Below are positions 1 to 44,120 of a stretch of 46,318 nucleotides of DNA, in pieces (position 1 is the stretch's first letter; each line of letters begins with the position of its first letter). The position numbers were made by a program, and so were the translations under genes. The notes under the pieces were generated by a model. That model had not been told where the DNA came from and searched no databases. It was given only the letters and a program-made list of their open reading frames with translations. This DNA comes from a virus. The DNA lies in IMG/VR virus record IMGVR_UViG_3300011115_000503, positions 1-46,318 of that record. One strand, 5' to 3'.

Positions 1-1114
1 CGTCGTCAAGTTTCTCAAGGCCATTGAAAAACACTTCAGTGAAGTCTTCCGCAAAGCGAATGATGTTGCCGCTGAAGTCCAACAAGTAACAATCCTTCTT
101 GCCAGTCTCAGGCGAAGAGCGTAGTCCACGTCCCCACATCTGGATGGCGGTAGACAACGACTTGCGCAGGGGACGTGCATCACACACGCAACCCACGTCA
201 GGAACGTCAAAACCTTTTGCCAATGCTTCCACCGAAATCAGCACCCGCAAATGGCTCGTTGGCTTGCGATACTCATCAAGCAATAGCTGACGCTCTGTCG
301 CTGTCGTCTCAGAGGTAAACACAGCCGCCATCACCCCTTGGCTGATAAACATCTGAGCCAACTCCTCACAGTGTTTGATCGTTGCACCGAACACAATGGT
401 TTTGCGGTTCTCAGCAAACTTCATCCACTCTTTGACAACGTCACCCACAATCGCCATACCGCGCTCTTCAGCCGCCTTATCAGTCCACTCACCACCCAAG
501 GTAGCCGCGCCCACCATATCGGGCTTAGTACAGCTAAATATCCGCATGGGTACCAACACACCAGACTCAGTGAGTTCGTGCATCGTGGTGGCGTTTATGA
601 GGTTTGTGAAGATCTTTCCAAGACCTGCACTGAACGGAGTCGCAGACAGACCAATCACAGCCGCATTGGTGTTCTGAGCAAACTCTGTCCACACCTTCAT
701 TTGCGTGTGAGCCTCGTCCACCACCAAAACGTCAAGTTGAGGCCAGAACGCTCGTTTGGCAATTGTTTGCGCAGAGGCAATCTGCAACAGTTCATCAGGA
801 CGACGACGCTGGTGTTTGGCTTGAATCACACCGTGTGCATTCAGACCATAGCTGTCTGCCGAATTAGACGTTTGATTGATCAGCGTCGTTCGGTCACAAA
901 GAAAAACAGCCCTCTTGCCCTTTTGCATCGCTTCATGGCAAATACGAAGCCCAAGGTAGGTCTTGCCAGCCCCCGTAGGAGCCATGATCAGTTGGTTTTT
1001 ATGCCCATCCCTAAACCCCTGACGGAGTTGTTGGTGGGCATCAATTTGGAATGCGCGTGGTGCGGGGAATCTTGATCCATCATCACGCTCACTTGGCGCT
1101 AGGACTGCGGTCAT
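1..1114 (-). CDS. DEAD/DEAH-box superfamily 2 helicase, 3' end outside the window
   Basis: This is an ATP-dependent nucleic-acid helicase, probably part of phage replication or recombination. The frame is open from an ATG at 1114 to the window edge (371 codons, no stop), so the C-terminus is missing. The SF2 motifs appear in order: Walker A APTGAGKT at residues 45-52, Walker B DEAH at 133-136, SATP at 157-160, and motif VI QMWGRGLRS at 325-333. The arrangement resembles UvsW/RecG-like and type III restriction (ResIII) helicases. The start codon overlaps the stop of the ParB-like gene (ATGA), so the two are probably translationally coupled. No nuclease domain is visible in the part present. 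The exact subfamily is open. Confidence 0.93.
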   Translation of the reverse strand, partial: MTAVLAPSERDDGSRFPAPRAFQIDAHQQLRQGFRDGHKNQLIMAPTGAGKTYLGLRICHEAMQKGKRAVFLCDRTTLINQTSNSADSYGLNAHGVIQAKHQRRRPDELLQIASAQTIAKRAFWPQLDVLVVDEAHTQMKVWTEFAQNTNAAVIGLSATPFSAGLGKIFTNLINATTMHELTESGVLVPMRIFSCTKPDMVGAATLGGEWTDKAAEERGMAIVGDVVKEWMKFAENRKTIVFGATIKHCEELAQMFISQGVMAAVFTSETTATERQLLLDEYRKPTSHLRVLISVEALAKGFDVPDVGCVCDARPLRKSLSTAIQMWGRGLRSSPETGKKDCYLLDFSGNIIRFAEDFTEVFFNGLEKLDD

Positions 1115-1917
1115 TTTTGTGCTTTCTTGATTTTGTCAAGTTGAGCTTGAGCGCGTTTGGCATCCTTGATGGCTTCGTTTTTCTCTGTCATCAGGGCGGC
1201 AATACGAATTTCCATCTGGGCATTCAGGAACGTCAAACGCTTGATCTCTTCGTATGCAGTAGCCAATGCATCATCAGCCTCTAGCATCTTGTTGAAGACT
1301 TCACGATCTGCTTGCTCGGCTAATTCATTGGCTTTCAACTCTTGCTCGTCAGGGCCGTAATCCTGAGTCAAGCTAGGCTTTGGATCTGCATCAGGGTGTA
1401 ATCCGATTACACTTTCAGTCTTTCCAGTCGTTTGTTTTTCAACCTGATTTTTGGCAGAAACCTCACGATTCTTTTGTTGTTTGTCCTTAACATCAGGTCG
1501 GCGGATAGAGCCAACAAAAGGCACTGACACTTTGCAAAGCTTGGCAATCTCGCGATCAGACTTGTTGGCGTGACGCTCCATAGAAATAGCAGTCTCGACA
1601 GACTTACGTTTGTCTTCGTTTGAGCGTGGTAAACCGTTGTCGTGGTTGGCGCTCAGAGCAAGGTCTTGCGCGTCCTCCATCGTGCCGGGCTTGTACTCCA
1701 CCTCGATGGTCATTGCCCCCGCCGCCTGCGCCGCAAAGTAGCGATGGAAACCGTTGTACAGCCAGTAAACCGTGCCGTCAAACGTCGCCTTGATGGGCGG
1801 AAACTTCTCTTCTTCACGCATCTTTTCAGCGTACTCTGCCACCTTATCTTGGTTAATCGAAACACGCATTTGTGTGCCACCGTCAATTCGGATCTGGCTA
1901 AACTTTAATACTTTCAT
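1111..1917 (-). CDS. ParB-like DNA-binding protein (268 aa)
   Basis: The N-terminus (residues 1-95) looks like a ParB/Sulfiredoxin fold: an opening beta region, then a helix after INQDKVAEYA, and NGFHRYFAA (55-63), which corresponds to the GxRR nucleotide-binding box of ParB proteins. A helix-turn-helix candidate lies at 118-140 (SDREIAKLCKVSVPFVGSIR). The last about 55 residues are a charged coiled coil, likely a dimerisation segment. ParB proteins are CTP-dependent clamps that bind short palindromes. No ParA partner is visible here, so a role in transcription or replication control is as likely as partition. SD-like TGGAG precedes the ATG. The gene itself contains a 17-bp palindrome at 1396-1412 and lies directly behind a structured leader at 1932-2011. 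Confidence 0.75.
   Translation of the reverse strand: MKVLKFSQIRIDGGTQMRVSINQDKVAEYAEKMREEEKFPPIKATFDGTVYWLYNGFHRYFAAQAAGAMTIEVEYKPGTMEDAQDLALSANHDNGLPRSNEDKRKSVETAISMERHANKSDREIAKLCKVSVPFVGSIRRPDVKDKQQKNREVSAKNQVEKQTTGKTESVIGLHPDADPKPSLTQDYGPDEQELKANELAEQADREVFNKMLEADDALATAYEEIKRLTFLNAQMEIRIAALMTEKNEAIKDAKRAQAQLDKIKKAQK
1396..1412. repeat. 17-bp perfect palindrome, copy 1 (inside the ParB-like gene)
   Basis: The site reads GTGTAATCCGATTACAC: two 8-bp arms around a central C. The same sequence occurs at 42673-42689, and the two copies share one further G on the left. In this copy it encodes part of the linker between the HTH and the coiled coil of the ParB-like protein. It has the size and symmetry of a dimeric protein-binding site. 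Confidence 0.8.
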
Positions 1918-1931
1918 AATTGCTCCAAAGG

Positions 1932-2011
1932 ATAAAAAAAGCCCTAGGCGGAACTCTCATCTTTCGATGTTGGCGGACTGGTGAGTACCAGCAGAGTCCC
2001 GTCTAGGGCTT
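1932..2011 (-). promoter_or_regulatory. Structured leader: three-way-junction hairpin plus U-tract before the ParB-like gene
   Basis: Two 19-nt arms (1939-1957 and 1993-2011) pair with only one mismatch and one wobble. The 35-nt interior forms two more hairpins: on the minus strand CUGGU-ACUC-ACCAG (1978-1991) and CAUC-GAAA-GAUG (1958-1969), the latter with a GNRA-type tetraloop. On the minus strand the long stem is followed at once by seven U residues, then the ribosome binding site and ATG (1917) of the ParB-like gene. It therefore looks like a terminator or attenuator with extra structure, placed between the repressor gene and the ParB-helicase pair. An alternative GGACU/AGUCC pairing could compete with the main fold. 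No known riboswitch class was recognised. Confidence 0.7.
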
Positions 2012-2047
2012 ACTCAAGAATTGCCGCCAAGCAATGGTTTTACTGTA

Positions 2048-2248
2048 TCACAAGAAAATATCTGGGCGCAACTCAGACCGTTTAACCAGCCCTTGTGTTG
2101 CTCGTTCAATTTTCAGTGATAGCTCAGGAGAAGCCTTGCGACTTCCATTCATGATGAGGGAAAGCCATGTTGGGGAGATCTTCAGATACTCCGCCATTTC
2201 AAGCTTTGCTCCTCGTGGTTCGGTAGAAAAGTATTCAGTAAGTGTCAT
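2048..2248 (-). CDS. YdaS/Cro-like repressor (66 aa)
   Basis: This is a small helix-turn-helix protein of the YdaS/Cro type: MTLTEYF at the N-terminus, then helices around GAKLEMAEYLKISPTWLSLI and NGSRKASPELSLKIERAT, ending RSELRPDIF. Proteins of this family are phage Cro-like repressors or antitoxin-like regulators. I chose the ATG at 2248 rather than the in-frame GTG at 2257 because the GTG sits on the -10 box, whereas the ATG falls where transcription should begin, implying a leaderless mRNA. No SD precedes it. The gene faces away from the plus-strand replication operon and shares a control region with it, which fits a switch or autoregulator. Confidence 0.8.
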   Translation of the reverse strand: MTLTEYFSTEPRGAKLEMAEYLKISPTWLSLIMNGSRKASPELSLKIERATQGLVKRSELRPDIFL

Positions 2249-2255
2249 GCGAAAC

Positions 2256-2285
2256 ACTATATCGTAACTTGGCGTTACAGTGCAA
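2256..2285 (-). promoter_or_regulatory. Promoter for the repressor (leaderless transcript)
   Basis: On the minus strand a -35 box TTGCAC (2280-2285) is followed after 18 nt by a -10 box TATAGT (2256-2261). Seven nt separate the -10 box from the ATG at 2248, so transcription would start at or next to the A of the start codon. The operator palindrome 2264-2278 lies inside the spacer, where a bound protein would block polymerase. Confidence 0.65.
2264..2278. promoter_or_regulatory. Operator candidate (15-bp palindrome)
   Basis: GTAAC-TTGGC-GTTAC has perfect 5-bp arms inside the repressor promoter spacer. Outer partial symmetry CACT/AGTG extends it to about 2255-2282. It is the best candidate site for the 66-aa repressor. 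Confidence 0.55.
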
Positions 2286-8547: not shown

Positions 8548-11500
8548 TTAGCCTTTCGCCATTCTGAGGTAGTCCAGAGGACTTTTCGCCTTTGGAGGTA
8601 TTTTACTAGTAGGAGCAGATCTTTTGTGCGCTCTAAGCTCTTCGCGCATCGCATCGAGCAATTTTGCACCTTGTTTGTTGTCACCGCCACCAATGGCAGT
8701 TACGAAAGCTTCAGGGAATACGTACTCACCGTCTGCAATTCTTGCAGGGACAGCCGAACCACCCGAAGACATCGAATGAGGCACTTTCTTTTGGAAACCC
8801 GCTAAAGCTTCAGCACCAGCCTTACTTGAGCCGTCACCCAAAGCCGCAACAGCGTCAGCGTCAATCACGTAGTCTCCATCGTGGAGCATGGCAGGGATGT
8901 CGTCGGATTGACCAGTACCATCACCTGTTGCGTAGTAACCAGTCAACCCAGTGATGAACTCAGGATTGTGACCCTTTGGAGCGGCTTTTGCGTATTTGTC
9001 AGGCAAACCCCCCTTGGCATATCCACCAAGCGCTCTAGGAGCCTTTGCGATGCCTTCTCTGAGGTGCTTGATGCCCATTAACTTTAAGGGACTGTCAACA
9101 CCACCAGTTCCAACAACGGGAGCGGCACTCAGACCCTTAGCTGACTCAATGTATTTGGGGTTCATTTGATCCAAGATACTGCCACCAGAAGCGGCAAACT
9201 TAGTACCGTATTTTTCAGCCATTTGTTCGGGTGTCAATTTAGCGTCCTCTTCAGCCATGAACTCTTCATAAGTCTTGTCTTTGTCAGACTTTTTGTCTTT
9301 CTTGTCTTCTTTTTCAGACGCTTTTTCTTCTTCAGGTGGCTTAAATCCACGCTCTTCTAAGACCGATTGCATCTCAGGAGTCAAAGAACTGAAAAGTTGC
9401 TTCAAAGACGCCAACTGCATAGCCTTCTCTTTACCAGCGCCCTTCAAGAATTGCGGTGAACTGTCGAGGACTGGATCAGCAAAGTCGCTGGGGCTGTACT
9501 TTGACGCTGTAGTCGGCTTGCGCGGTAATACAGGGGGTTTAGATACTGAAACAGTAGTGGAAAGAGGGCTAACAGAAGGTGTTGATGATGTTTCCGAGAC
9601 GGTGCTTTTTAAAGCATCTAACGGGTCTACCGTCAAAACATCGCTTGTGGGCAACCCACCAACAACTGAAGATACAGAAGTGACTGGAAGATCTGCGTTT
9701 GCAACTACATCCGCATTTGCATCAGTATTTGCGTTGGTAACAACATTTGTATCTGCATTAACGTTTGTAGTGACATTTGTGTTGGCGTCAACATTTGCAT
9801 CAGTGGTTACATTGGTGTTTGCATTTACCGCAGTATTCACGGCAGTGTTGATCGCTGTGTTCACGTCTACACCAGCTTCAATAGCCGCTTGAACAGCCGC
9901 ATTGATAGCAACAGTGGAATCTACTCCAGCGTTGATCGCCGCATTTACAGCGGTGGCAACAGAAGTGTTGGCATTTGTTCCAGCCTCAATTGCTGTAGTT
10001 ATTGCGGTCGTAATGGAAGTGTTGACATCAGCACCAGCATTGATCGCGGCAGTTATCGCGTTACCGACCACTGTATTTGCATCAGCACCCACATTTACTG
10101 CGGCATTCACAGCGGTCGTAATAGCGGTTGAAACGTTTGTACCAGCATTGATTGAGGCGGTCACGGCGGCAGTCGTTGCTGTATTTGCGGCAGTCGTTGC
10201 ATCTGCACCTACGGCAACTGCGGCAGTAACACTGTTTGAAATAGCTGTAGAAACATCCGTACCAGATGTGATCGCAGAAGTCACAGCGGCTGTAGTAGCG
10301 GCATTCGTAGCAGTCGTAACACTTGCACCAGCATCTACAGCGGCAGTGACAGCGGTCGATACAGCAGTCGTCACATCTGTACCCGCCGCAATAGAAGCAG
10401 TCACCGCCGCAGTAGTAGCAGTGGTTGCGGCTGTACCTACATCAGCGCCAGCATCAACTGCGGCTGTAACAGAAGTTGAGATAGCTGTAGCAGTGTCTGT
10501 ACCAGCGGCAACGGAAGCAGTAACGGCGGATGTCACAGCGGCGTTGCTTGCTGTTGTAACGTCAGCACCAGCAGTAACAGCCGAACTGACAGCAGTTGTA
10601 ATGGCTGTTGAAACATCTGTCCCAGCGGTTACGGAAGCAGTCACAGCGGCAGATGTGGCAACTGTAGCGGCAGTAGATGCGTCTGCTCCAGCGGCGACAG
10701 CGGCGGCAACGCTACTTGTGATCGCAGTAGAGGTATCCGCTCCAGCAGTTATAGAAGCTGTAACAGCCGCTGTAGTTGCGGCGTTTGTCGCTGTCGTTAC
10801 ATTAACACCATTGTCCACAGCCGCCTTCACAGCAGTTGCAACAGACGAAGTCACATCTGCACCAGCAGTTATGGCGGATGTAACGGCTGAGTCCACAACC
10901 ACAGAACTATCAGCGCCACCTGTAATGGCGGATGTTACTGTCGAATCAATCGCCAAAGTAGAGTCAGCACCTGCAGTAATTGCAGAAGAAATTGACGAGG
11001 TGATCGTTTCACCTACGTCTGCCCCACTATCAAGAGCAGAAGACACTGCGGTAATGATCGAGGAGTTAGCGTCAGCACCGTTTGTGATAGCTGAACCAAC
11101 CGAAGTACCAACAGCCACGCTGACACTTGCACCATTAGACAAAGAGTTCTGAACGGAGTTTGTGATGGCGGTATTGACACCACCAGCGTCTCCTGAAGTT
11201 ACAGCGGCAGTGATGTCGTTGTTGATGTTGGTGGCAGTCACAGCATTTGCTGTAGAGCTTGCACCCTTACCAACACCCATCTCAATCACACCTTGCGTCA
11301 AGATCTTATTGGCGTCAAGACCTTGTCCAAGTGCAAGCTGGCTTGCGGCGGCTTGAGCCGAGCCTTCAACAAGCTCTCCAACAGAGTTCTTGGCAATCAT
11401 CTTTGAAAGGACTTTGCCTTCAACAGCACCACCTGTTACACCCGTTGCAATCATCGCCGCAATAGAGGAATTACGAGCCGCTATTCGTGCCTCAGCCTCA

Positions 11501-14442
11501 GGCATTTTTTGAGCAATAGCCGATTTGTATGTGTCGTTGTAAGCCGCTCCGCCAGATTCCATCATGTCGTTGGCAAGCGAGATTCCATAACGAGCAATCT
11601 TGCTACCAGTCTTCATCGCCATGCCGACGCCGGGGACTTCCTCAAAAGCTTCAGTAAGAACCCAGTTAGCCGCGCCAAGAGGGTTGTTAAATGCAGAAGA
11701 CATCAATGCGGCTGTCTTTCCTGCCAATCCTTCAGCGTTGTCAACATCTTCACCAATTTGTTGCTGTTGAAGTTTAATTTTTGGATCAGAGATTGATGTT
11801 GCAAACGTATCTACTTGACCAGCCAATTCACGCAGTTTGTTTCCTGCATCGGTAGACTTACCAGCCACTAGATCAATAATTCCACCAGCATTCCCAAGCA
11901 AGTTACCACCTGCCTGAACAGCCGCTACTGGACTGTTTGCAACAGCACCAAAGAACGTAGTCATGGCATCAGCCACACCGTTGGTAATCTTGCCAGCAGT
12001 AGTCTTCAGCAACTCATTGCTACCGTAGTTTTTGCTACCAGACACAGTGTTGCCCATAGCATCAACGACCAAATCATCATCAGGATTTATCGCTTTATTT
12101 TGCAATGCAACATTTGCACGAGTTGCCGCATCACGAGCCGCCATGTCATTTTGAGCTTTAACAACTGCTCGCATTTCTGGCGTCATGTTTGCCATATTGG
12201 TGTCGCTGATAGCTTTAAGGACAGCTTCACCTTCACTAATTGCATTAGCATTACGTGCGGCAATCAGTGCTTTTTGCTCTGGTGTTCCGCTTGCAAGATT
12301 TTTAGCGTTAAGAGCGGCGGCTTGCTCCTCAGCAGTGCTGGTGCTAAAAGTCTGCCCTTGCCATGTGAAGTTCTGACCTGCACCAAGACCTTCACGAGCA
12401 AGTTTGTATGCTTCGCTCTTTGATGGGGCGTTAGCGATGTTGTTCTTCAACTCTTCTGCTTTGGCTTCAGCAAGTGCTTGATCTACAGCAGAGTTAGACG
12501 CACCCATTGTGTAAATACTGCCGTTGTACTCAAATTGAGTTGCATTAGGATTACGAGCTTTTGCAAGGGCTTGAGCTTCTTGTTCAGTGTCAGCTTCGCT
12601 GTTCCCAATTTTTACAACTTTAGCGGCATTGTCTTTGGCATTTGCGGCGGCTTGGGCATCTACACCTGCCATATCACTACCAGCTAAGTTAGCGGCGGTG
12701 TTTGTTTTTAATGCTTCAGCCTCAAGTTGGGCAATGGTATTTTCGGCATTGTTGTTGCCAGCAGTGTATGTTTGACCATCAAAAATAAACTTGTTGTAAC
12801 CCTGATCAGTCGCAAACTTAGCGGCGGCGTTTACATCGCGAGCACCAGAAGCATCAATGGTTAATTGATTATCAAGTTCTTTTGCGACCGAGGCGTCCAG
12901 ACCACTAGGTGTAGTGCCTGCTGTAGTGCCTAATCCACCTGTCGGTGTGAAATAAGGTGAAACAACTTGATCTGTCTTTTCGTTTCTTACTTTGGCAACT
13001 TCAGCATTTGCCGCCGCAATTGCAGTGTTGATGACGATCTGATCCAATGGCTTACCTGAGATCACACCAGTCACGGCATTGATAGCCATGTTCTTCTGCG
13101 CAGGGGTTAGGTCTTTGAACCCATCAATGTTGCCCATAAGAGCATTGACAGCGCCAGAAGTACCGCCAGAGACAGCACCCCTCATCATGGCGTTTCCAAC
13201 GTCTTGACCGCTCAATAACGCTGTAGCACCTGATACTGCGGCGTTTTGGAAACCTCTAGTCAAACTGTCTGTAACGCCTGCTGGCAATCCAAGATCTTTG
13301 ATGAAGGACGTACCTTCTTTGACCGCATCGAGTCCGGGGATCTGCGCACCCGCATAACTGATTGCCGCACTCTTAATGGCATCACCGATGTCTTTTCCAC
13401 TAAGCACCTGAACCGCCATGTTTGCGGCGATCTGCTCAGGAATGGACAAACCACCTGTAGCTACAGCCAACGCAATCTGACCCAGTGGGCCGAGATCATC
13501 CATGATCGCCTTCAGATCATTGGATGACGCACCCGTCGTATAGAAGTATGGGTTGCCTTGTGCATCAAACTGAACACGATAGGCGGTGTTTCCAGATCCA
13601 GCATACGTGCCTGACCATGCATTGCCAGTACCACGCTCACCATAGTCGTTGATCAGCGCTTGACCTGTAGCCTTGTTTCCAATGACTTGTTGAGTTCCAA
13701 CAGGAGCAACGTACCCTTCATCAGTCTGAGTAACTTTGCTTGGATCTACAGGGTTACCTTTTGAGTCTGTATAACCAACAATTCTTTGCGTATAGATAGG
13801 GCCGTTCTCATCGTATTGACCAGTATCTATTTGTTCAATCTTTGGGGTTACAGCTTCATCAACAGTTTTGTTGATCATGCCAACTTGATTGATGTCAGTC
13901 ACACCATTAGCCGCAAGCTGTTCAGCCATTGCTCTAGCATTAGCCTCAGCAGAACCAAAACCTTCACCTTGCCACTTGGCAGTCGTTCCTTGAGCAATGA
14001 TCTGCTGTGCCAATTTGTCAGCAACAGTTGTGTCAATCTTGTAGTCTTTTCCAGTAAGCTGAATAGTTTTTTGATTTGTAGGAGTCTGATCAACAGAATC
14101 AAGACCACTAACAGTAGCTGTATCAGTTACAAGGTTTCCACTACTATCAAAAATTCGACCATCAGCAAGTCGGAACGTTCCATTCCCTAAGTCAGTTACA
14201 TTGTCAGCGGCGGCTTTTTGTTGTGCGGCATATTCACGTTCTGCTTGAGCATTAGTTTCGGCACGTTTACGCTCCATTTCAGCTTGTTCTGGGGTTATAG
14301 CCGAAGCAAGACCGCCAGCAGTAGTTGCTGAAGTGGTTACAGGATCAACCGCTAAATTAGATAGACCACTAGGTGTTGCATCTACCCCAGCAACATCGCC
14401 AGTATCTTCAAATGCGTTTCTGTATGAACCTTGGAGTGCCAT
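8548..14442 (-). CDS. Giant repetitive internal virion protein (1964 aa)
   Basis: This is the largest gene in the window. Residues 1-1050 are helical and Ala-rich, with recurring short units that contain an aromatic mid-point (FEYNGSIYTMG, FIFDGQTYTAG, FTWQGQTFSTS). Several Gly/Ala-rich hydrophobic stretches lie near 350-480. Residues about 1109-1527 are an array of 18- and 22-residue repeats. A Thr/Asn/Val-rich stalk follows, then a lysine-rich segment (EKASEKEDKKDKKSDKDKT). The C-terminal about 170 residues carry two copies of a DG(D/E)YV...A(L/I)G.G motif and three GG motifs. Size, order and the neighbouring transglycosylase suggest an ejection protein that spans the envelope or fills the core. 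No enzyme motif was recognised. SD AGGA precedes the start. Confidence 0.7.
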   Translation of the reverse strand: MALQGSYRNAFEDTGDVAGVDATPSGLSNLAVDPVTTSATTAGGLASAITPEQAEMERKRAETNAQAEREYAAQQKAAADNVTDLGNGTFRLADGRIFDSSGNLVTDTATVSGLDSVDQTPTNQKTIQLTGKDYKIDTTVADKLAQQIIAQGTTAKWQGEGFGSAEANARAMAEQLAANGVTDINQVGMINKTVDEAVTPKIEQIDTGQYDENGPIYTQRIVGYTDSKGNPVDPSKVTQTDEGYVAPVGTQQVIGNKATGQALINDYGERGTGNAWSGTYAGSGNTAYRVQFDAQGNPYFYTTGASSNDLKAIMDDLGPLGQIALAVATGGLSIPEQIAANMAVQVLSGKDIGDAIKSAAISYAGAQIPGLDAVKEGTSFIKDLGLPAGVTDSLTRGFQNAAVSGATALLSGQDVGNAMMRGAVSGGTSGAVNALMGNIDGFKDLTPAQKNMAINAVTGVISGKPLDQIVINTAIAAANAEVAKVRNEKTDQVVSPYFTPTGGLGTTAGTTPSGLDASVAKELDNQLTIDASGARDVNAAAKFATDQGYNKFIFDGQTYTAGNNNAENTIAQLEAEALKTNTAANLAGSDMAGVDAQAAANAKDNAAKVVKIGNSEADTEQEAQALAKARNPNATQFEYNGSIYTMGASNSAVDQALAEAKAEELKNNIANAPSKSEAYKLAREGLGAGQNFTWQGQTFSTSTAEEQAAALNAKNLASGTPEQKALIAARNANAISEGEAVLKAISDTNMANMTPEMRAVVKAQNDMAARDAATRANVALQNKAINPDDDLVVDAMGNTVSGSKNYGSNELLKTTAGKITNGVADAMTTFFGAVANSPVAAVQAGGNLLGNAGGIIDLVAGKSTDAGNKLRELAGQVDTFATSISDPKIKLQQQQIGEDVDNAEGLAGKTAALMSSAFNNPLGAANWVLTEAFEEVPGVGMAMKTGSKIARYGISLANDMMESGGAAYNDTYKSAIAQKMPEAEARIAARNSSIAAMIATGVTGGAVEGKVLSKMIAKNSVGELVEGSAQAAASQLALGQGLDANKILTQGVIEMGVGKGASSTANAVTATNINNDITAAVTSGDAGGVNTAITNSVQNSLSNGASVSVAVGTSVGSAITNGADANSSIITAVSSALDSGADVGETITSSISSAITAGADSTLAIDSTVTSAITGGADSSVVVDSAVTSAITAGADVTSSVATAVKAAVDNGVNVTTATNAATTAAVTASITAGADTSTAITSSVAAAVAAGADASTAATVATSAAVTASVTAGTDVSTAITTAVSSAVTAGADVTTASNAAVTSAVTASVAAGTDTATAISTSVTAAVDAGADVGTAATTATTAAVTASIAAGTDVTTAVSTAVTAAVDAGASVTTATNAATTAAVTSAITSGTDVSTAISNSVTAAVAVGADATTAANTATTAAVTASINAGTNVSTAITTAVNAAVNVGADANTVVGNAITAAINAGADVNTSITTAITTAIEAGTNANTSVATAVNAAINAGVDSTVAINAAVQAAIEAGVDVNTAINTAVNTAVNANTNVTTDANVDANTNVTTNVNADTNVVTNANTDANADVVANADLPVTSVSSVVGGLPTSDVLTVDPLDALKSTVSETSSTPSVSPLSTTVSVSKPPVLPRKPTTASKYSPSDFADPVLDSSPQFLKGAGKEKAMQLASLKQLFSSLTPEMQSVLEERGFKPPEEEKASEKEDKKDKKSDKDKTYEEFMAEEDAKLTPEQMAEKYGTKFAASGGSILDQMNPKYIESAKGLSAAPVVGTGGVDSPLKLMGIKHLREGIAKAPRALGGYAKGGLPDKYAKAAPKGHNPEFITGLTGYYATGDGTGQSDDIPAMLHDGDYVIDADAVAALGDGSSKAGAEALAGFQKKVPHSMSSGGSAVPARIADGEYVFPEAFVTAIGGGDNKQGAKLLDAMREELRAHKRSAPTSKIPPKAKSPLDYLRMAKG
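9862..11118 (-). repeat. Coding repeat array: about 22 units of 18 or 22 residues
   Basis: At protein level each 18-residue unit follows the pattern [T/S]-A-I-T-T-A-V-x-A-A-V-x-A-G-A-D-V-[T/N]. In the middle of the array six 22-residue variants (TA-T-N-A-A-T-T-A-A-V-T-A-S-I-x-A-G-T-D-V-x) alternate with 18-residue units, giving a 40-residue higher-order repeat. Units differ by many silent and conservative changes, so this is an old, selected array rather than a recent slippage product. Eighteen residues equals five alpha-helical turns, so each unit is probably a helix ended by the GAD turn. Confidence 0.8.
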
Positions 14443-14445
14443 TTT

Positions 14446-14679
14446 TTATCCTGCTATGCTCATAATGCCAACCATTTGTTCTGCCCAGTCTTGCCATGTC
14501 TCGCATAGGCGCTGATCAGGAATTGCTGATTGACCAAAAAGTCCAATACCGTTAATACCGTCAACCCAGTCGCGCCACTTGTCTTCTGAAACTGAACCAA
14601 TGTCGTTTGCCGAAAACAACTCCGCCATCAGACTACAGTAAAAGTCCCATTCCATGTTGCGAGGGTCGTAGGTAACCAT
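14446..14679 (-). CDS. Small acidic, Trp-rich protein (77 aa)
   Basis: I do not recognise this protein. It has six tryptophans in 77 residues (for example KWRDWVDG and ETWQDWAEQMVG), is acidic overall, and has no membrane segment. The start overlaps the stop of the hub gene by 1 nt, and its stop lies 3 nt before the giant gene, so it is co-translated with virion genes. It may be a chaperone or a minor structural protein. Confidence 0.62.
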   Translation of the reverse strand: MVTYDPRNMEWDFYCSLMAELFSANDIGSVSEDKWRDWVDGINGIGLFGQSAIPDQRLCETWQDWAEQMVGIMSIAG

Positions 14680-16916
14680 TATGGGTTACCTGTAGAACGT
14701 TCGTCACCCTGATCAGCACTAAGTAACACTTTACCCATGTAATAGTCACCGTTAAATGTGTTTGATTCAAACTTTAAACGCAACAAACGACGCTGTTCAC
14801 GCATGTCAATTTTAAGCGTTGTGTTGTCAAAAACATAGGGGTCAGATATCTCATCAACGCCGTCAGCGTAACCTTGACCAGTCACGTACAAGTTCATGTC
14901 ACCAGTCTGTACAAAGTCAGGCTCAACGCGCTCCAAGCGCAACCAACGGTTGTCGCCTGAAAGCTGGGGGTTGCCCGGGCCACCCGTGACCCATCCCAAA
15001 TTATTCGTAGTAAATGACGAACGAACAGCGTTCACATTCGTTGTGTAGATTTCATCTGTACCGCTCTCGTGTTGCCATAGCGTGTACTTACCTGTCGTAT
15101 TGACCGTAGTACCCCCCCATATAGGTTTGCGAAACACCTCAGAGAACGTTCCAGCAGATCGGCGAGCACCCAAAGCTTGCCCTGCGTCATACCATGTCTT
15201 CTCACGCACGTTGTAGATGATGGCGTCTGTGCATTCGGTAGCATTTCCACGAGGATAAAACCACCATATCTCACCCCAACGAGGGACTTTTGTACACCAC
15301 ACCTTTTGGCGCTGTGCATAGTTCAAATTGTCAAAGAAGTAGTTTTGGTTCAACGTGTTAGGAATCTCTTGAACCACACCGTTGTAGGTCAAGAAACGAT
15401 CAACACCGCACCAATAGAAAATACCGTCGTACTCAATCACGCATTGGCTTGACATGATTGAAGTTTGGCTCGTCACAAGGTCATACTTCCAATAGAAGTT
15501 GATCCCGTTAACCGTGCTTGGGGTGTACGTCACACGGATAATTGAATCCAATGACCAAAACAGACCTGCAGGTGATGTTGTACCGCCACGCAGTGGTAGT
15601 CCTTTGACAATCTTACCCGTGGCAACGTTGTTTGCGTTGGCATCAGCAGACACCCAATTTGAGAAGTCTCCTGCGGCTGAGTTCTGGATCAGTCCGTTGT
15701 TTCCGTAAACAAACAAATATGGGTGCAACATCACAACACCACCAGAAACGGAGATGTTGTTGTCAAACGTGACTGTGACCGTACCAGTCGTCATCGCGGC
15801 TGAAGTTGTCAGTGTGGTTGTCGCGCTACCTGAGAAAGCCACAGGAGTACCGCTAGAACCGACTGTCTGAGAGTTATTGATGGTGTATGTACCAATCCCC
15901 CCAATACCCGTTCCAAGCGCTGTAATCGTCGTATTTGGCAGAACACCGACACCAGCACCACCAATGATGGTCTGACCTACTGCCAATGATCCATCGTTAG
16001 CGGCAGTCACTGTCAGTGTCGTTCCTACCATGTACCCAGTAATGGTGACATTTGCGACTACGTCAGTGTTGGTGATCGTTGTGCCTGCGGTGATACCAGT
16101 ACCAGAGATTGTTTGACCGTTTCCAACCAAATAGTTGGCACTGTTGATGATGATGGTCGATCCGTTTAAATAAGCAGATGAGGTGAAGATTCCGACTGGG
16201 GCGAGAGCTGTGCCGGGAAACTGCCCAATCAACGGTTTTGTGTTTGTCGTGGAGTCGATGGCGGCGAGGTTTTGACCGGGGTGTGCAATCAAGTTGCTCG
16301 TCGCACCACCACTTGAGTCATACCCAATATCAAACTGCCACAGCGTTTTATCGCCACCAGTAAAAATGGTGTTCCCAGTCAGCAACAAAGAAAATCCAGA
16401 CCCAGTTCCACCAATCGATGCAGATGACGCGCTCAAGATGTCACCCACCGTGTATCCAGTACCTGCGGCAGTGATCGTCACGCTGGTGATCACATTACCA
16501 GAAACAACAACAGTAGCTTGTGCGCTAGATCCAGTACCACCAGTCAAGGGAACTGCAGTATATGTGCCGTTTGTATATGCTGAACCAGCATTTGCAACTG
16601 TGACAGCGACAACACCACCAGTCATAACGTAGGAGACTGGGCCGAACCCCAAACCGTCGTCATTGTCGGTATACCACTGCTCAATTCCTAAGCTGTAGCC
16701 AGAGATAACGTAGTTGATCCCGTTCTCCGACGTCATTGTCATGCCACGAGAGATTCCAGAAGCGTTTAGAAAAATTCCTTTATAGCCACCAATCTTGCGT
16801 GGTAAAGCGTTTTGAAAACGAACCCATTCACCGTCTACATAAGTAGGGGCGGCGAACTGAGTGCCATCGCGCTGGATGCCCGGCTTCACCTGCAGTTGGA
16901 TGACCTTCGCTGTCAT
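14679..16916 (-). CDS. P22 gp10-like tail hub / DNA stabilisation protein with inserted domains (745 aa)
   Basis: The N-terminus has the gp10-type opening: a Gln/Leu-rich start, then PGIQRDGTQF, VDGEWVRFQNALPRKIGGY. The C-terminal half returns to that fold (YDGIFYWCGVDRFLTYNG, WWFYPRGNATECTDAIIYNV). In P22 this protein closes the tail hub and keeps packaged DNA in. Between them, residues about 95-390 hold Thr/Gly-rich beta domains typical of phage fibres (TAAGTGYTVGDIL; GIGTYTINNSQTV), which appear inserted into the hub fold. Adjacent genes are a tail fibre and, further upstream, an adaptor, which fits a tail assembly block. Alternative: T7 gp12-like tubular protein. Confidence 0.72.
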   Translation of the reverse strand: MTAKVIQLQVKPGIQRDGTQFAAPTYVDGEWVRFQNALPRKIGGYKGIFLNASGISRGMTMTSENGINYVISGYSLGIEQWYTDNDDGLGFGPVSYVMTGGVVAVTVANAGSAYTNGTYTAVPLTGGTGSSAQATVVVSGNVITSVTITAAGTGYTVGDILSASSASIGGTGSGFSLLLTGNTIFTGGDKTLWQFDIGYDSSGGATSNLIAHPGQNLAAIDSTTNTKPLIGQFPGTALAPVGIFTSSAYLNGSTIIINSANYLVGNGQTISGTGITAGTTITNTDVVANVTITGYMVGTTLTVTAANDGSLAVGQTIIGGAGVGVLPNTTITALGTGIGGIGTYTINNSQTVGSSGTPVAFSGSATTTLTTSAAMTTGTVTVTFDNNISVSGGVVMLHPYLFVYGNNGLIQNSAAGDFSNWVSADANANNVATGKIVKGLPLRGGTTSPAGLFWSLDSIIRVTYTPSTVNGINFYWKYDLVTSQTSIMSSQCVIEYDGIFYWCGVDRFLTYNGVVQEIPNTLNQNYFFDNLNYAQRQKVWCTKVPRWGEIWWFYPRGNATECTDAIIYNVREKTWYDAGQALGARRSAGTFSEVFRKPIWGGTTVNTTGKYTLWQHESGTDEIYTTNVNAVRSSFTTNNLGWVTGGPGNPQLSGDNRWLRLERVEPDFVQTGDMNLYVTGQGYADGVDEISDPYVFDNTTLKIDMREQRRLLRLKFESNTFNGDYYMGKVLLSADQGDERSTGNP

Positions 16917-18145
16917 TAGAACGTACCGCCTGAAATTCCATTAGGTATGTTCAAACCAGATGTACTCAGAGTCATTCCGTTTGTTCCGTTAACAGCAAAA
17001 CCAATTTGGTTTGATGCAGGCAAATACAAACCTGTCGTGGTGTTACCCAAGAAGTTCAGGGATGGCGCGGACACTGCGCCGGGCGCTAGGGTCGCTGACG
17101 TAAACGAGCTTGATGTGTTACTTGTCGTGCTGTACACATTCGTACCGTCACACACTACAAACGCTGTTTGACCTTGACCAACAGAAACTGTCGATCCAAT
17201 ACCAGATGTCTTAAATGTCAGTGTGTATGCACCTGCTGTACCGTTTTGCAACGAGTACAACTGAACCGTAGAAGGTAAAACAACAATTTGGTTTGACGTT
17301 AGCGTACCTGAATACTCTTGAATGATGGCAGAACCTTGCGCGGCAGTTAAAGTCAAAGTTCCGCCAGTGACAACCTGTGCGAGTTGCGTAAAGGCAAATG
17401 AGTTTGACCTACCATAAGCGTAGGTATTAAAACCAGTCGATCCGTTAGACACGATAACAACAGACTCAGTCAACTGCAACTGCATGTTGATGTTGCCGTC
17501 GATAGTGTCCGTACCTGCTGGCGTCAATGTCAGAACACCAGTCCCGCTGTTACGAATGATGGTGAACCAGTTGTTGCCAACGGTTGCCGCTGAAGGAAGT
17601 GTAAATGCACCAACACCACCAGCCCATACTTCAAACTGAGCACGGCTTGCCGCAGTCAAAGCAGAGTTTGAATAGTAGCTTGTAACGTTGTAAGCTTGAT
17701 TCAACGTCAAACCAATTGCTGTCAGCCCGTATCCCGCTAATGCACCCGCATTGGCGTTTGAAGTACCAGCACCAAAAACAACTGAAGCCCAAATACCGTT
17801 GACTGTTGTGTTGTCAGTCAAAAAGATAAAGTCAGCAATACCAGAGTTAATAGAAACAATTGTGTTTCCGCCGTTGTCAGTGACGGTAAATAGCTGAGAT
17901 CCAACGTTTCTAATAATCAGGGATTGACCAGTCGATACCTGAGTAGCAGGTGGAAGCTTTAGCAACCACCCTGTTGGGCCACCAGAGGCGGTCGCAGTAA
18001 CGTCAATAATGCTACTAGCAGGTGTGTTGTCGTTGCCGTTGATAGGCCATTCCAACTCAGTGTTTGCTGTTAACGACAGCGATTCGTAGCTAACAGAAGA
18101 CGGGGAAACCGTCTGACCTGTGAATGGGTTTACATATGTTGTCAT
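16916..18145 (-). CDS. Tail fibre protein (409 aa)
   Basis: This is a beta-rich, Thr/Ser/Gly/Asn-rich fibre with no enzyme motif. Repeating patterns of short strands (TGVLTLTPAGTDTIDG, GGTLTLTAAQGSAIIQ) are typical of trimeric fibres. The C-terminus carries the widespread fibre-tip pattern NTTTGLYLPASNQIGFAVNG followed by a short Gly-rich end. It begins with MTTYVNPFTGQ, perhaps the virion-attachment segment. The stop overlaps the start of the hub gene by 1 nt, so the two are coupled. It probably contacts the host receptor or supports another adhesin. Confidence 0.72.
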   Translation of the reverse strand: MTTYVNPFTGQTVSPSSVSYESLSLTANTELEWPINGNDNTPASSIIDVTATASGGPTGWLLKLPPATQVSTGQSLIIRNVGSQLFTVTDNGGNTIVSINSGIADFIFLTDNTTVNGIWASVVFGAGTSNANAGALAGYGLTAIGLTLNQAYNVTSYYSNSALTAASRAQFEVWAGGVGAFTLPSAATVGNNWFTIIRNSGTGVLTLTPAGTDTIDGNINMQLQLTESVVIVSNGSTGFNTYAYGRSNSFAFTQLAQVVTGGTLTLTAAQGSAIIQEYSGTLTSNQIVVLPSTVQLYSLQNGTAGAYTLTFKTSGIGSTVSVGQGQTAFVVCDGTNVYSTTSNTSSSFTSATLAPGAVSAPSLNFLGNTTTGLYLPASNQIGFAVNGTNGMTLSTSGLNIPNGISGGTF

Positions 18146-18147
18146 GA

Positions 18148-18789
18148 TCAGTTATCCACGGCAATTGCTGAACGATCTGCAATACGCAGAGTATCTTCAG
18201 TTTTGAGGGCGGCGAGAGCTTCGTCAAACATTGACTTCCATACCGCCAGTCTTGCATCGTTTTTAAGGAACGGTGCTGTCTGCTTCAAAGTACCAAACAA
18301 CATGGCATTTGGAGCATTTATTGTTAACCAATTTGTTTGATGTGACGATGACAGAGGAATCAAACGTGTGTAGCACAGCGCCTCAAAAGCATATGCTTTA
18401 TCTGGTGTTGGAGCTACCAACCAATGGTCATAGTCGTAGTCAGCGTAGTACAAAGGTGTACCAGTTGCTGTAACGTCCTGAGCATAGTTGTTCAAATATT
18501 CCAATTTGCGAACCAAAAGAGGTTGCTTCTGACCGCTGTTAGAAAGCGTCATCGATGTCGTTTTTCGCCATCTTGCAGGCTTAGGAATGACTGGGTTGCC
18601 AATGTTCATGGTCGAGTCTACGACTTCCATTTGACCCAGCGTCTTGATGTTCTGCGCAATCTCAAATTCGCACAGCGTAATAAATGTTGGGATGGCTTCA
18701 ACTACAGCGGCGTCTCTACGCTCCAAATACTGAAGCACAGTACTCGTCAGTGAGTCGTATGTCATCACCCATGATGGAGTTGTTGCCAT
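18148..18789 (-). CDS. Head-tail adaptor / tail tubular protein A-like (213 aa)
   Basis: The protein has the pattern of gp11/gp4-type adaptors: a start with short helices (LTSTVLQYLER), a helix with FITLCEFEIAQNIKTL, a central beta part with PARWRKTTSM, a DYDHWLVAPTPDKAYAFEALC strand pair, and a helical C-terminus. Such proteins sit under the portal and join tail hub to head. It is followed by a fibre and the gp10-like hub. A second protein with similar N- and C-terminal patterns, enlarged by an insertion, is encoded at 26971-28044, so which one contacts the portal is uncertain. Confidence 0.65.
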   Translation of the reverse strand: MATTPSWVMTYDSLTSTVLQYLERRDAAVVEAIPTFITLCEFEIAQNIKTLGQMEVVDSTMNIGNPVIPKPARWRKTTSMTLSNSGQKQPLLVRKLEYLNNYAQDVTATGTPLYYADYDYDHWLVAPTPDKAYAFEALCYTRLIPLSSSHQTNWLTINAPNAMLFGTLKQTAPFLKNDARLAVWKSMFDEALAALKTEDTLRIADRSAIAVDN

Positions 18790-18829
18790 GTTATCTTCTC
18801 AAAATTGGTTTGTTCATTTTAGTCTGCCT

Positions 18830-19306
18830 TTAAGATAAAAACAACGCCCGTTCGTCAATACGGCGGTTTTGTAAACCTTTGAGGACTTTACCCCCAGCCA
18901 TGCAGTATTTCAGGAGTTCTTCCGCCGCGCCAGCCATATCACCACGGAGCACCTTTTGGCGCAGAGTTGACCTCTGGAGAGTACCCAAACCTACGTTGAA
19001 AGAAAATGAAACCAACGAATCAAACTGTCCTTGAGTAAGAGGAACAGGACAATAAGTAGCCACTCCCTTCTCAAAACGAGCAAGATCTGCCCTAAGTATT
19101 GCATCGACTTCCTCCATGCTGTATTTGCGCATAGCCTCTGGTAGGGGCACAAATGCGTCCCGTTGGTCTATCTTGAGCTTCCCCTGCTCTGGGAACATGA
19201 CATGCCCAATGCCTACCGTCCAAAGTTTTGCTGGACATTTATACGGGGTCTGCCTCACACCTTCGTGGTGCGAAATCATCTTGATGGCTTTGGGGCTGAC
19301 GTTCAT
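18830..19306 (-). CDS. Endolysin, GH24 phage lysozyme (158 aa)
   Basis: This is a muramidase that cleaves the glycan backbone for host lysis. The T4/R21-type triad is visible with exact spacing: E15 (SHHEG), eight residues, C24, five residues, T30 in TVGIGH. A cysteine at the second position is common in this family. FDSLVSFSFNVGLG matches the conserved core, and the length is normal. There is no signal peptide or N-terminal anchor, so it depends on a holin. The start overlaps the holin-like gene stop by 4 nt. The 40-nt gap to the next gene shows no terminator. Confidence 0.92.
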   Translation of the reverse strand: MNVSPKAIKMISHHEGVRQTPYKCPAKLWTVGIGHVMFPEQGKLKIDQRDAFVPLPEAMRKYSMEEVDAILRADLARFEKGVATYCPVPLTQGQFDSLVSFSFNVGLGTLQRSTLRQKVLRGDMAGAAEELLKYCMAGGKVLKGLQNRRIDERALFLS

Positions 19307-19818
19307 TTTCCGAAGGCTCTACCGCCAAAGTGAAAAGCTATTATGGAAGCAAACAGGGCTTGAGTATCGTTATCCCAGAGCATTTCCAAGAGGTCATTGA
19401 AAGGTACGCTCATATAGTAGCCATACCAGAAACCCCCAATATCCACAAAGACCAATAGAAAGAAGAAACCGTAGGTAATAACAGGACGGACACTTGCTCT
19501 TAGATTCTTCATCCATTGTGATGGCCCTTCGTTTAAGCTTGTATCGTGGGCATAGATAGCTTGCATTTCAGCTTGCTGTGCGCCAATCAATACTTGGGTG
19601 GTGTTAGCCGCGCTCTCAGTCGCCAACTGCTCTGTGCGGATGTTTTCTACCCTCTCCTGAGCCTCAAATCCAGCTTTCCGTAATTCAAGCTCACGGGTAA
19701 TCTGCATTTGAGCCAAAGCAAGCTCATGGGCTTTGTCTTGCCGTGCTTGGAAAAAATCCAAAAGCTTGGGCAAACCACCCATTAAGAACGAAATCAGGGT
19801 TGAGAGAAGAGTTAGCAT
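19303..19818 (-). CDS. Holin candidate of the three-segment type (171 aa)
   Basis: The hydrophobic N-terminus (LLSTLISFLMGGLPKLL) is followed by a long charged helix (residues 25-95, LAQMQITRELELRKAGFEAQ), then two hydrophobic segments (PVITYGFFFLLVFVDIGG and LFASIIAFHFGGRAFGK). This order matches the Holin_3TM-type family found before lysozymes. The product would form the membrane lesion that releases the endolysin. Its stop overlaps the lysozyme start, as expected for a lysis pair. The long helical arm is typical of the family. Confidence 0.72.
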   Translation of the reverse strand: MLTLLSTLISFLMGGLPKLLDFFQARQDKAHELALAQMQITRELELRKAGFEAQERVENIRTEQLATESAANTTQVLIGAQQAEMQAIYAHDTSLNEGPSQWMKNLRASVRPVITYGFFFLLVFVDIGGFWYGYYMSVPFNDLLEMLWDNDTQALFASIIAFHFGGRAFGK

Positions 19819-35076: not shown

Positions 35077-35535
35077 TTAAACGTAAGCCTTGAACGAAAG
35101 CGGATCGTCAGTGACTTTCGCAATCAATTCATGGTCGTTGATGGTCATAAAAAGAACAGGATCTTCGTTATCCTCTTCGTTAGGGACTGCACGTTCCCAA
35201 CGGTCACCGCCCCATTTAGGTACTCGGACGTAGTCACCTACGCTTGCCCAGCTACCTTCAGGCCATGATTCCATAGTCTCGCGGTTCTTGAAGGCTAGGG
35301 GGCCTATCTCCACCACTCGTCCAATCATGTTCTGCCACTTCTCAGTCTCTTTGGTTTCGGAAACCAAAATGATCTTGCTAGCGGTTGTCTTTTTGATGCG
35401 GCGTAGTTGAACTACAACCCTTCCACCAAACGGCTTTTGCCCCGGATTCACATCTGGGAACGCCCACTTTAGCTCCTGCTGATCAGGTACGCCTTCACTT
35501 CCCGATATCGTCGGGATCGGATCTTTGTCACTCAT
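35077..35535 (-). CDS. GroES-like co-chaperonin (152 aa)
   Basis: The GroES-type beta-barrel is recognisable: PFGGRVVVQLRRIKK at the start, then the mobile-loop region ASKIILVSETKETEKW, GRVVEIGPLAFKN, SWASVGDYVRVPKWGG, and the closing LFMTINDHELIAKVTD. Phage co-chaperonins such as T4 gp31 cap host GroEL to fold the capsid protein, which here is two genes downstream of scaffold. The loop is longer than in bacterial GroES, and there is an added N-terminal tail of about 35 residues. I chose the ATG at 35535 with SD AGGAG. The family call is strong in pattern, but no alignment was run. Confidence 0.78.
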   Translation of the reverse strand: MSDKDPIPTISGSEGVPDQQELKWAFPDVNPGQKPFGGRVVVQLRRIKKTTASKIILVSETKETEKWQNMIGRVVEIGPLAFKNRETMESWPEGSWASVGDYVRVPKWGGDRWERAVPNEEDNEDPVLFMTINDHELIAKVTDDPLSFKAYV

Positions 35536-41846: not shown

Positions 41847-42566
41847 TTAGCCTAAACGTCTGCCGATATCGTATTGAGGTACATCAAATGGTCTTGGCGG
41901 TTCAGGATTGATGCGGGGATCTTGCATTGGCGGCTCAGGATTGGTACGAGGATTTACTTGTGGCTCGTTGTAATTAACCTGTGGCGCATAGCCGATCTGC
42001 GGTTGAACATCTGGTTGCGCATATCCGATCTGAGGAGATTGAGTAGTCTGTCCTTGTGACACGTCATAACCATATGCGTCGCTTAATGCTCTCATCAGAT
42101 CAGGGTTACCTGCATACTGCTGGAAGAAGTCAGGCGTACCAATGTTCACACCACCTTGCTCATTAGGTACACCTGCAATGAACTGACCGTTGCTTAACGT
42201 CACACCACCAATCTGGGGAATTTGTGGGGCAATTGTGTCCAATGGATAAATAGCGGGAGGAGTAGTATCTTGCTCGTACCTTGGTTCAGGCATCGGCGCT
42301 GTGTCTTGACCCGGGAACGGCGTTGTTGTCGGGCTGTAATACTCTTCTAAACGGGGAGGAGGAGGAGGAGGAGGAGGCGGGACAGGCTCTTCATAACGCG
42401 GAGGAGTAGGAGTAGTCATCCCCTGTAGTAAACGCGGATCAATATTACCCTGCGCAAGCATCCTAGCTAATGCCTCCATAGGACTCGTCGTTTGCCCAGT
42501 TTCACGCGCTCTTGTTAGCAAATCAAGTTGTCTTAATTGCTGAATCCTTGGTTCCATTGGAGACAT
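41847..42566 (-). CDS. Proline-rich protein (239 aa)
   Basis: Residues 1-50 are helical (QQLRQLDLLTRARETGQTTS). Then come a Pro-rich region with nine consecutive prolines, PRYE and PEPRYEQD motifs, a small folded-looking part (GGVTLSNGQFIAGVPNEQGG, then ALSDAYGYDV), and a repeat QPQIGYA, NPRTNPEPP, DPRINPEPP tail. It is likely disordered over most of its length. It lies between terminase and the 1129-aa gene, with SD AAGGA. The function is unknown; it may be a minor virion or assembly protein. Confidence 0.6.
   Translation of the reverse strand: MSPMEPRIQQLRQLDLLTRARETGQTTSPMEALARMLAQGNIDPRLLQGMTTPTPPRYEEPVPPPPPPPPPRLEEYYSPTTTPFPGQDTAPMPEPRYEQDTTPPAIYPLDTIAPQIPQIGGVTLSNGQFIAGVPNEQGGVNIGTPDFFQQYAGNPDLMRALSDAYGYDVSQGQTTQSPQIGYAQPDVQPQIGYAPQVNYNEPQVNPRTNPEPPMQDPRINPEPPRPFDVPQYDIGRRLG
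42355..42375. repeat. GGA trinucleotide repeat (7 units)
   Basis: Seven perfect GGA units followed by GGC encode, on the minus strand, most of the nine-proline tract. It could change length by slippage in steps of one proline without a frameshift. Confidence 0.85.
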
Positions 42567-42671
42567 ATCAAGTCCTTTCGTAAATGTCCACAGATTATGC
42601 CTTCACTGGCGCATCGAGTCTACCAATTTAAATCTGCACTCAGTGCCGATTTGATTGTAAGTATCGTGTAA

Positions 42672-42690
42672 GGTGTAATCCGATTACACC
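42672..42690. repeat. 19-bp perfect palindrome, copy 2 (across the terminase stop codon)
   Basis: GGTGTAATC-C-GATTACACC has 9-bp arms. Its inner 17 bp equal the copy at 1396-1412. It covers the TAA stop of the large terminase gene (42684-42686) and borders a 117-nt gap that also holds an 11-bp palindrome GCACTCAGTGC (42636-42646) and a weak -10-like CATAAT. No other function is visible in that gap. Confidence 0.8.
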
Positions 42691-44120
42691 GCATACGGAT
42701 TCACTTTACCTTGCGCCTTCTTGTTGTACTCATCTGCATCATAAATATCGTCTTCATCTAACTCATCCCTTGGGGGTGCATCGATACTGATCCAGCCGCC
42801 ATCACGCATGTACCTCAGTCCCTGTGAGATGCAGTCAACGAATTCGTCATGAACCGTCTCAGGGAATGAGCAGATCTGGCTGACCATCCCTTCAGCCCAG
42901 TCCCTCACGTAGCCCTTCTTGACGGTGCTCTCAGGCACCCACACGCGCCCTGCCTTGATGATGTTTGCCACGATGCTTAGGCGCTGGATCTTGTCCGCAC
43001 GACCGGGGTTATAGGCATGCACGGGCAGGTGCGCTCGTTGCAAGTCTTGGATCAGGGATATGCCTGCTGACTTGTCTTCCACCAGAATCAGATCCACCAG
43101 CTTCTTCTCGCGTCCCTCACCGTAGACCGTCTCGTACTCGTCGATCACCTTAGGGCGCAGGTCAGGGTACTGTAGGTGCTCTTGCCAGCAGTCCAGCACC
43201 ATCACGCACATCCCACCGTCCATAGGCTTGAATGCACCCAGCGTAATGCACCCTGTAGGGTCGTTCTGCGTCTTGTCAGACGTCGCGCAGTCATAGGACT
43301 GAATGATGTACTCCAGCTTGGGAAACGGCTTGTTGGCAGGCCATAGCTTGAACCAGTCCCTCTTGACGATGCCGCCCTCCTCAGGGTCAATGATCTCAGC
43401 GTGGATCTCTTGCCTTCCTAAGTTCGTGCCTTCGTATTGCAGGATCTGCTTCTGGAACGATGGCGCAAGGTTCTTCATGTTGCTGTACGTGCTGGCGCGT
43501 GTGATCACCACGTCGTCACCCTCACGCTCGATCAACTCCATCACCACCTCTTTGGGCTTGGGTGTAGTCGAGCATATGAGCTTAGTCCGCTGTCCCAGTC
43601 GTATGCCGAACTGGATCATGTCCCATGACTCGCGCAGGTACTCCCATGCCGCTAGCTCGTCCAGCCAGCCACCGTGGAACTGTGGGCCGCGAAACCGCTC
43701 AGGCTCAGACGCTGGGATGCCCTTGATGAAGCTCCCATTGATCAGGTGGATCTCATGTAGGCTGGAGTTGTACTTCGCTACCAGCGATGGCGGTATCACG
43801 GAGATCAGACCTGAGTCACCCTCAAAGCACGTACCCTTCAAGTCGCCACTGGTAGGGGCTGAGACAAGCCATCGTGTGTTAGGTTGCTCCCATGCCCATG
43901 ATGCCAAAGTTTCGGCACTGGCGCGTGTTTTGCCTGCTCCACGGCCAGCTAACATCAGCCATACATTCCACCAATCACCAGTCGGCTCGATCTGGTGCTT
44001 GTGCGCTTGCTTACCCAGCCAGTTCAACTGCCAGTTGATCACCGCCTGCTCAGTGGGATGCAGGCTCTCGAATTCCTTCTGGATACTGGGATCAGCCAGT
44101 ACTGCATCCAATGCGCTCAT
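42684..44120 (-). CDS. terL: Terminase large subunit (478 aa)
   Basis: This is the ATP-driven DNA packaging motor and nuclease. Walker A GRGAGKT is at 59-65 and Walker B WLDELAAW has D154-E155. STTPKPKE (184-191) is a coupling motif. The RNase H-like nuclease has SYDCATSD (D277), LVEDKSAG (E348/D349) and HDEFVDC (D425, D429). Both domains are complete. The start overlaps the small-subunit stop by 4 nt (ATGA). The length and motif order are normal. The packaging type (cos, pac or direct repeats) cannot be read from this gene alone. Confidence 0.95.
   Translation of the reverse strand: MSALDAVLADPSIQKEFESLHPTEQAVINWQLNWLGKQAHKHQIEPTGDWWNVWLMLAGRGAGKTRASAETLASWAWEQPNTRWLVSAPTSGDLKGTCFEGDSGLISVIPPSLVAKYNSSLHEIHLINGSFIKGIPASEPERFRGPQFHGGWLDELAAWEYLRESWDMIQFGIRLGQRTKLICSTTPKPKEVVMELIEREGDDVVITRASTYSNMKNLAPSFQKQILQYEGTNLGRQEIHAEIIDPEEGGIVKRDWFKLWPANKPFPKLEYIIQSYDCATSDKTQNDPTGCITLGAFKPMDGGMCVMVLDCWQEHLQYPDLRPKVIDEYETVYGEGREKKLVDLILVEDKSAGISLIQDLQRAHLPVHAYNPGRADKIQRLSIVANIIKAGRVWVPESTVKKGYVRDWAEGMVSQICSFPETVHDEFVDCISQGLRYMRDGGWISIDAPPRDELDEDDIYDADEYNKKAQGKVNPYAV

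Follow-up and report, generated by a model that had tools for sequence, protein, structure and literature searches.

Phages very often encode orphan ParB-like proteins, whose DNA targets and roles are, to our knowledge, largely unknown. One described system that resembles the locus analysed here is KorB-OB of plasmid RK2, in which a protein with a ParB fold and a helix-turn-helix is paired with several dispersed palindromic operators lying a few bp or tens of bp upstream of promoters (PMC11790492). The present locus differs from it in being phage-borne, in having no identified KorA-like partner and no ParA-binding motif, in the replacement of the catalytic Box III glutamate, in carrying a site within the ParB-like gene itself and in a specificity that changes from phage to phage. 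With the ParB-parS pairs of chromosomal and plasmid ParABS systems it shares the fold, the helix-turn-helix, palindromic sites of 13–19 bp and a residue equivalent to R173, but ParA is not found, the sites are scattered over the genome and Box III is not conserved. Noc, which acts with NBS, is likewise an orphan ParB paralogue with many dispersed sites; it has a membrane-targeting function, and some members of the family studied here match the nucleoid_noc profile TIGR04285 (best E-value 1.4e-7).

The stoperators of cluster A mycobacteriophages are likewise short and dispersed, and their specificity varies among related phages. However, stoperators are immunity-repressor sites of temperate phages, whereas the present case combines a ParB fold with symmetric sites. 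Lacachita-type phages resemble it in having parB without parA but differ in that no sites have been described for them, and the authors of that study knew of no characterised phage with only ParB (PMC10286716). The sites, their co-evolution with the protein, the fold and the absence of ParA reported below were computed here; the open-licence literature that we searched does not describe these sites, although an earlier report may have been missed.

The ParB-like protein and the palindromes of the window

The window, i.e. the whole stretch of DNA that was analysed, corresponds to a linear record of 46,318 bp in IMG/VR and is probably not a whole genome. Since related records reach 52–59 kb, further sites may be missing from it. 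Near one end lies the gene for a ParB-like protein of 268 aa (1111–1917, minus strand; phrog_1033, E-value 9.6e-20), whose stop codon is overlapped by the start of a helicase gene (ResIII/DEAD, phrog_16; 2–1114, minus strand) that is cut by the window end. The protein comprises an N-terminal domain of ParB/sulfiredoxin type (residues 1–90), a helix-turn-helix at about 100–139 with the specificity residues R122, V132 and P133, a linker (169–186) that is disordered in the AlphaFold model (pLDDT <50) and a C-terminal coiled coil (191–267). The mean pLDDT of the model is 86, and its best PDB matches in Foldseek are nucleotide-bound ParB (CDP/CTP, E-value about 1e-6), Noc and KorB, the latter including structure 8qa9. 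The best sequence-profile match of the N domain is sulfiredoxin, which, judged by sequence, it resembles as much as ParB.

Seven residues (T15, Q16, R18, G56, F57, H58 and R59) are invariant in all 80 family proteins. Box I is kept as Q16-x-R18 and Box II in part, the G-x-x-R reading GFHR where canonical ParB has GERR. From the invariant Box I and the retained part of Box II, it is likely that the protein binds a nucleotide. The glutamate of Box III, E111 in B. subtilis, is needed for CTP hydrolysis by ParB; at the corresponding position 90, alanine or valine is found in 78 of the 80 relatives and glutamate in none, next to an invariant N91, in a register that was set with Spo0J and is the same in an HMM alignment. 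Because this glutamate is replaced and the N domain is sulfiredoxin-like, the ligand and the clamp cycle may differ from those of ParB.

In the family, the neighbours of the ParB-like gene are helicase, primase-like and exonuclease genes. Directly upstream of it in the window lies a 69-aa helix-turn-helix ORF (2048–2257, minus strand), probably a YdaS/Cro-like regulator; the equivalent position in Manatee Spring phage MW202545 is occupied by a ‘putative antitoxin’. The leader between this ORF and the ParB-like gene (1928–2012, minus strand) forms a very stable hairpin (z −4.9) ending in a U run, like an attenuator or terminator ahead of the parB-like start.

The first-pass annotation of the window had pointed to two identical 17-bp palindromes, and a scan of the window finds GTGTAATCCGATTACAC exactly at 1396–1412 and 42673–42689, with no third match at up to three mismatches. 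Shuffled windows contain on average 0.06 matches and none contains four, which places the pair far beyond chance; the annotation's expectation for the window, about 0.7 perfect palindromes of odd length with arms of 8 bp, is also correct. The first copy (GTGTAATC-C-GATTACAC) does lie in the ParB-like gene, in the codons of the disordered linker. The second was placed merely near the terminase, which understates its position: extended to a perfect 19-bp palindrome, GGTGTAATCCGATTACACC (42672–42690), it covers the stop codon of terL, which encodes the large terminase subunit (42684–44120, minus strand; PF03237, E-value 6.8e-26). Elsewhere in the window, arms of at least 8 bp occur only in TTTGGTTTCGGAAACCAAA, a perfect single-copy palindrome with 9-bp arms at 35350–35368.

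Self-embedded and dispersed sites in related genomes

Palindromes with arms of at least 6 bp are found in the linker zone, the stretch that AlphaFold predicts to be disordered, in 61 of 80 distinct ParB-like genes. With arms of at least 7 bp, the linker zone holds 61 palindromes compared with 1.1 in codon-shuffled controls, and only 5 fall in the remaining sequence, which is 3.5-fold longer. Since the calls demanded perfect symmetry, the 19 genes without a perfect linker palindrome include some that retain imperfect ones. The linker palindromes occupy all three reading frames and encode unrelated residues, and selection therefore acts on the DNA; this rules out selection on the protein sequence as their cause, and the shuffled windows together with the codon-shuffled genes likewise rule out a chance origin.

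A terminase search gave 80 contigs of relatives, and whole records of relatives were then scanned. In many of the contigs a perfect palindrome lies just downstream of the terminase stop, the place being constant and the sequence variable, with half-sites GTGTAATC, GTGTAGTC, GTGGAATC, TACTAGTT, TACTAATC and CGCGATT. Among about 20 related phage contigs, most genomes have one palindrome of their own in up to eight copies, nearly always with a copy in the ParB-like gene and usually with one beside terL. A motif-by-genome table is essentially diagonal, the motif of one genome being essentially absent from the others, and even close relatives whose terminases are 97–99 % identical carry differing sites. 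The exact 17-mer is often not conserved, an outcome that the first-pass annotation had listed as a refutation of its reading, whereas the position of the site, its symmetry and a core RRTY-N-RAYY common to the related phages are.

Among relatives with whole records, most carry a site at the terL end, sometimes at its start, and often in tandem at a distance of 24–38 bp. Many further sites sit in structural genes, far from a recognisable promoter, and others in spacers, with gaps of about 5–20 kb in many records. The spacing is unusually even in one genome (G028, P 0.003) and all 14 genomes fall on the even side, but few do so significantly on their own and the genomes are not independent, so that even spacing is only suggestive.

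Some viral contigs that do not carry this ParB-like gene (L001/L012/G033, L020/G031 and G035) also contain the exact 17-mer; no ParB-like relative was found in them, but this negative is weak, as the PF02195 setting used misses the window protein too. One contig that likewise does not have the gene, L146 (G033; 9913–19524) with L147, has nine palindromes around TGTAATCGGATTACA that resemble the site studied here.

Among distant relatives in bacterial genomes, many of which are probably prophages, about 34 of 80 genes contain a long palindrome (16–31 bp) that immediately follows the codons of the helix-turn-helix. Because these distant relatives carry it, the self-embedded site is a general trait of the phrog_1033 family and not of one phage. 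The planctomycete chromosome CP087563.1 encodes at least 10 ParB-like paralogues of the family (loci L298, L300, L301, L305, L311, L326, L329, L334, L342, L345 and L351), and several of these genes contain a different long palindrome. The ParB-like genes of Acidovorax phage AP1 (L166, 8605–9429) and of G008 (from 789) share only the C-terminal coiled coil with the family, have another ParB-type N domain and DNA-binding part, and contain no comparable palindrome. Such fusions suggest that domains have been swapped and that the coiled coil has a conserved partner, which may be the adjacent helicase.

Covariation of site and recognition residues

Each half-site position was compared by mutual information with 243 protein columns in 50 sequences of less than 90 % identity. 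The best column is residue 132 for half-site positions 8 and 5, residue 122 for positions 7 and 6, residue 133 for positions 4 and 3, and residue 151 for position 1; for position 3, residue 133 reaches a z of 17.8 and the next column 5.7. This covariation is not built in, since symmetry, and not sequence, was the criterion by which all palindromes were chosen. A tree-aware test, based on a protein tree made without the helix-turn-helix and the linker, shows that base and residue changes share branches, with these residues ranking first for six of the seven positions tested, the exception being position 4.

The triple 122/132/133 predicts the site: YQP goes with TACTAATC, YQS with TACTAGTC, RHP with GTGGAAT and RAP or RVP with GTGTAATC, and sites are nearly uniform within these groups as well as within the AKP and IET groups. 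Half-site bases agree to 91 % between proteins that combine the same triple with distant backbones (49 % identity) and to 75 % between proteins with different triples on near backbones (69 % identity), and backbones as much as 89 % identical can have different sites. A chromosomal relative from Zeimonas arvi (L286, 36 % identity), found afterwards, has the triple RHP and the half-site GTGGAATC, and GTGGAATCGGATTCCAC is present as the RHP code predicted. Residue 132 aligns with R149 of B. subtilis Spo0J and therefore with R173 of Caulobacter ParB, with which it also aligns through a shared K/V-S-x motif. R173 is among the four residues for which a role in determining the specificity of ParB and Noc is proven (PMC7383237).

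The first-pass suggestion that the ParB-like protein binds to this palindrome thus gains strong support, the sequence of the site changing together with the recognition residues. Predicted binding, as far as covariation can tell, is close to settled, and palindrome and protein almost certainly form a cognate pair.

Proposed expression control and competing roles

A promoter-like element, TAGACT-N17-CATAAT, lies at 42594–42622 (minus strand), 49 bp downstream of the second palindrome and upstream of ORF 41847–42566 and the structural genes; nothing else in the window matches the pattern. Most genomes checked are without it, but seven, including the window, have exactly one copy, located between terL and the structural genes, compared with a shuffling expectation of 0.024 per record. 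In six of the seven, the palindrome is directly upstream of the element, at edge gaps of about 5, 5, 5, 28, 33 and 49 bp, the last being that of the window; sites upstream of promoter-like elements are evident on the terL side of these six genomes and not elsewhere. The gaps overlap the range of the KorB operators, which lie 4–10 bp (OB-proximal) or 45 bp and more (OB-distal) from promoters (PMC11790492). Being varied and off the helical repeat, they would fit a sliding clamp or roadblock better than an activator bound to a fixed face. Because a conserved promoter-like element follows the terL-side site at a short distance in several phages, it is plausible that clamp loading serves to control expression, one of the roles put forward in the first-pass annotation.

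We therefore propose, as the probable reading, that the protein is an orphan clamp of KorB/Noc type with dispersed sites, which would repress the operon that encodes it and regulate the late operon. The palindrome would be the cognate parS- or OB-like site of the orphan ParB-like protein that the phage encodes without ParA, and a dimer of this protein would read the two half-sites through the helix-turn-helix. By homology to ParB, Noc and KorB, the nucleotide-bound protein would then close around the DNA and slide, and a few dispersed sites could therefore serve the whole genome. Through the intragenic site, the protein would hold down transcription of the parB-helicase operon to which it belongs; through the site at the terL end, it would govern the structural (late) operon, much as KorB acts from its OB-proximal and OB-distal sites. 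Clamp formation, the ligand, autoregulation and late-operon control are what we infer on these grounds. Clamp-type loading is the better-founded part, with a good chance of being right, and transcription control of the KorB kind as the main role falls slightly short of an even chance.

Loosely even sites in structural genes and spacers leave room for a genome-wide role. Loading at dispersed sites might serve genome organisation or segregation, the protein coating, condensing or bridging the phage DNA as it replicates or recruiting a host condensin, transcription then not being the main role; the genome-wide dispersal, the gaps and even spacing described above and the company of helicase, primase-like and exonuclease genes are in keeping with this reading. 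We consider it rather unlikely, as the spacing is suggestive at best, ParA over the cut-off is missing, and promoter-adjacent and near-universal intragenic sites fit regulation better. That sites might serve as immunity or incompatibility tags, through which phages sharing them repress or compete with one another as with stoperators, would account for the diversification of specificity between phages with nearly identical terminases and similar protein backbones; it is less likely still, since no lysogeny module was identified and drift with concerted change could yield the same pattern. The frequent, often tandem sites at the end or start of terL could also be read as a pac-type signal at which the ParB-like protein guides the terminase. 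The promoter-like element partly explains this position, however, and sites are found in the ParB-like gene and across the structural genes as well, which makes a role in packaging improbable.

The first-pass annotation had also considered a phage-plasmid, and a ParABS-like partition function would agree with the ParB fold, the palindromic sites and the site inside parB. Nevertheless, PF13614 gives no ParA match in 20 records and PF01656 none over the cut-off in 25, apart from one sub-threshold match in the distant G056, the tyrosine integrase profile PF00589 has no match in 20 records, the ParA-binding motif LG[KR]GL is present in 0 of 80 proteins, and plasmid similarity is confined to the N-terminal half. 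Phage-plasmid partition is therefore unsupported and appears very improbable, even allowing that the records searched for ParA may be incomplete and that the host might provide a ParA in trans. As perfect inverted repeats can fold into hairpins, the palindrome might be thought an RNA hairpin or terminator instead of a DNA site. The linker zones, however, contain 70 perfect odd palindromes and only 7 hairpins with a loop of 3, and symmetry passing through the central base is something that an RNA hairpin would not need. Neither site of the window folds unusually well as RNA, there is no terminator-like match in 42400–44300, Rfam gives no match, and the site covaries with helix-turn-helix residues. 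Symmetry counts, RNA stability and the terminator scan thus rule out this explanation, to which we attach practically no probability.

Of the orphan clamp that we favour, it is conceivable, though we hold this with less than even confidence, that such a system is widespread in phages, a ParA-less clamp and its dispersed sites changing specificity in concert so that the private code of each lineage marks and manages its own genome, and that chromosomal relatives keep the self-embedded site. The freshwater phages of the family reveal a ParB/parS-type pair that would work without its usual partner ParA. The finding supplies DNA targets for a whole family, a readable residue-to-base code with natural variants, and a natural data set on the joint change of DNA-binding specificity and multiple dispersed sites. 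It also provides a means of finding what a phage ParB binds from the gene that encodes it, and the function of ParA-less phage ParBs becomes directly testable.
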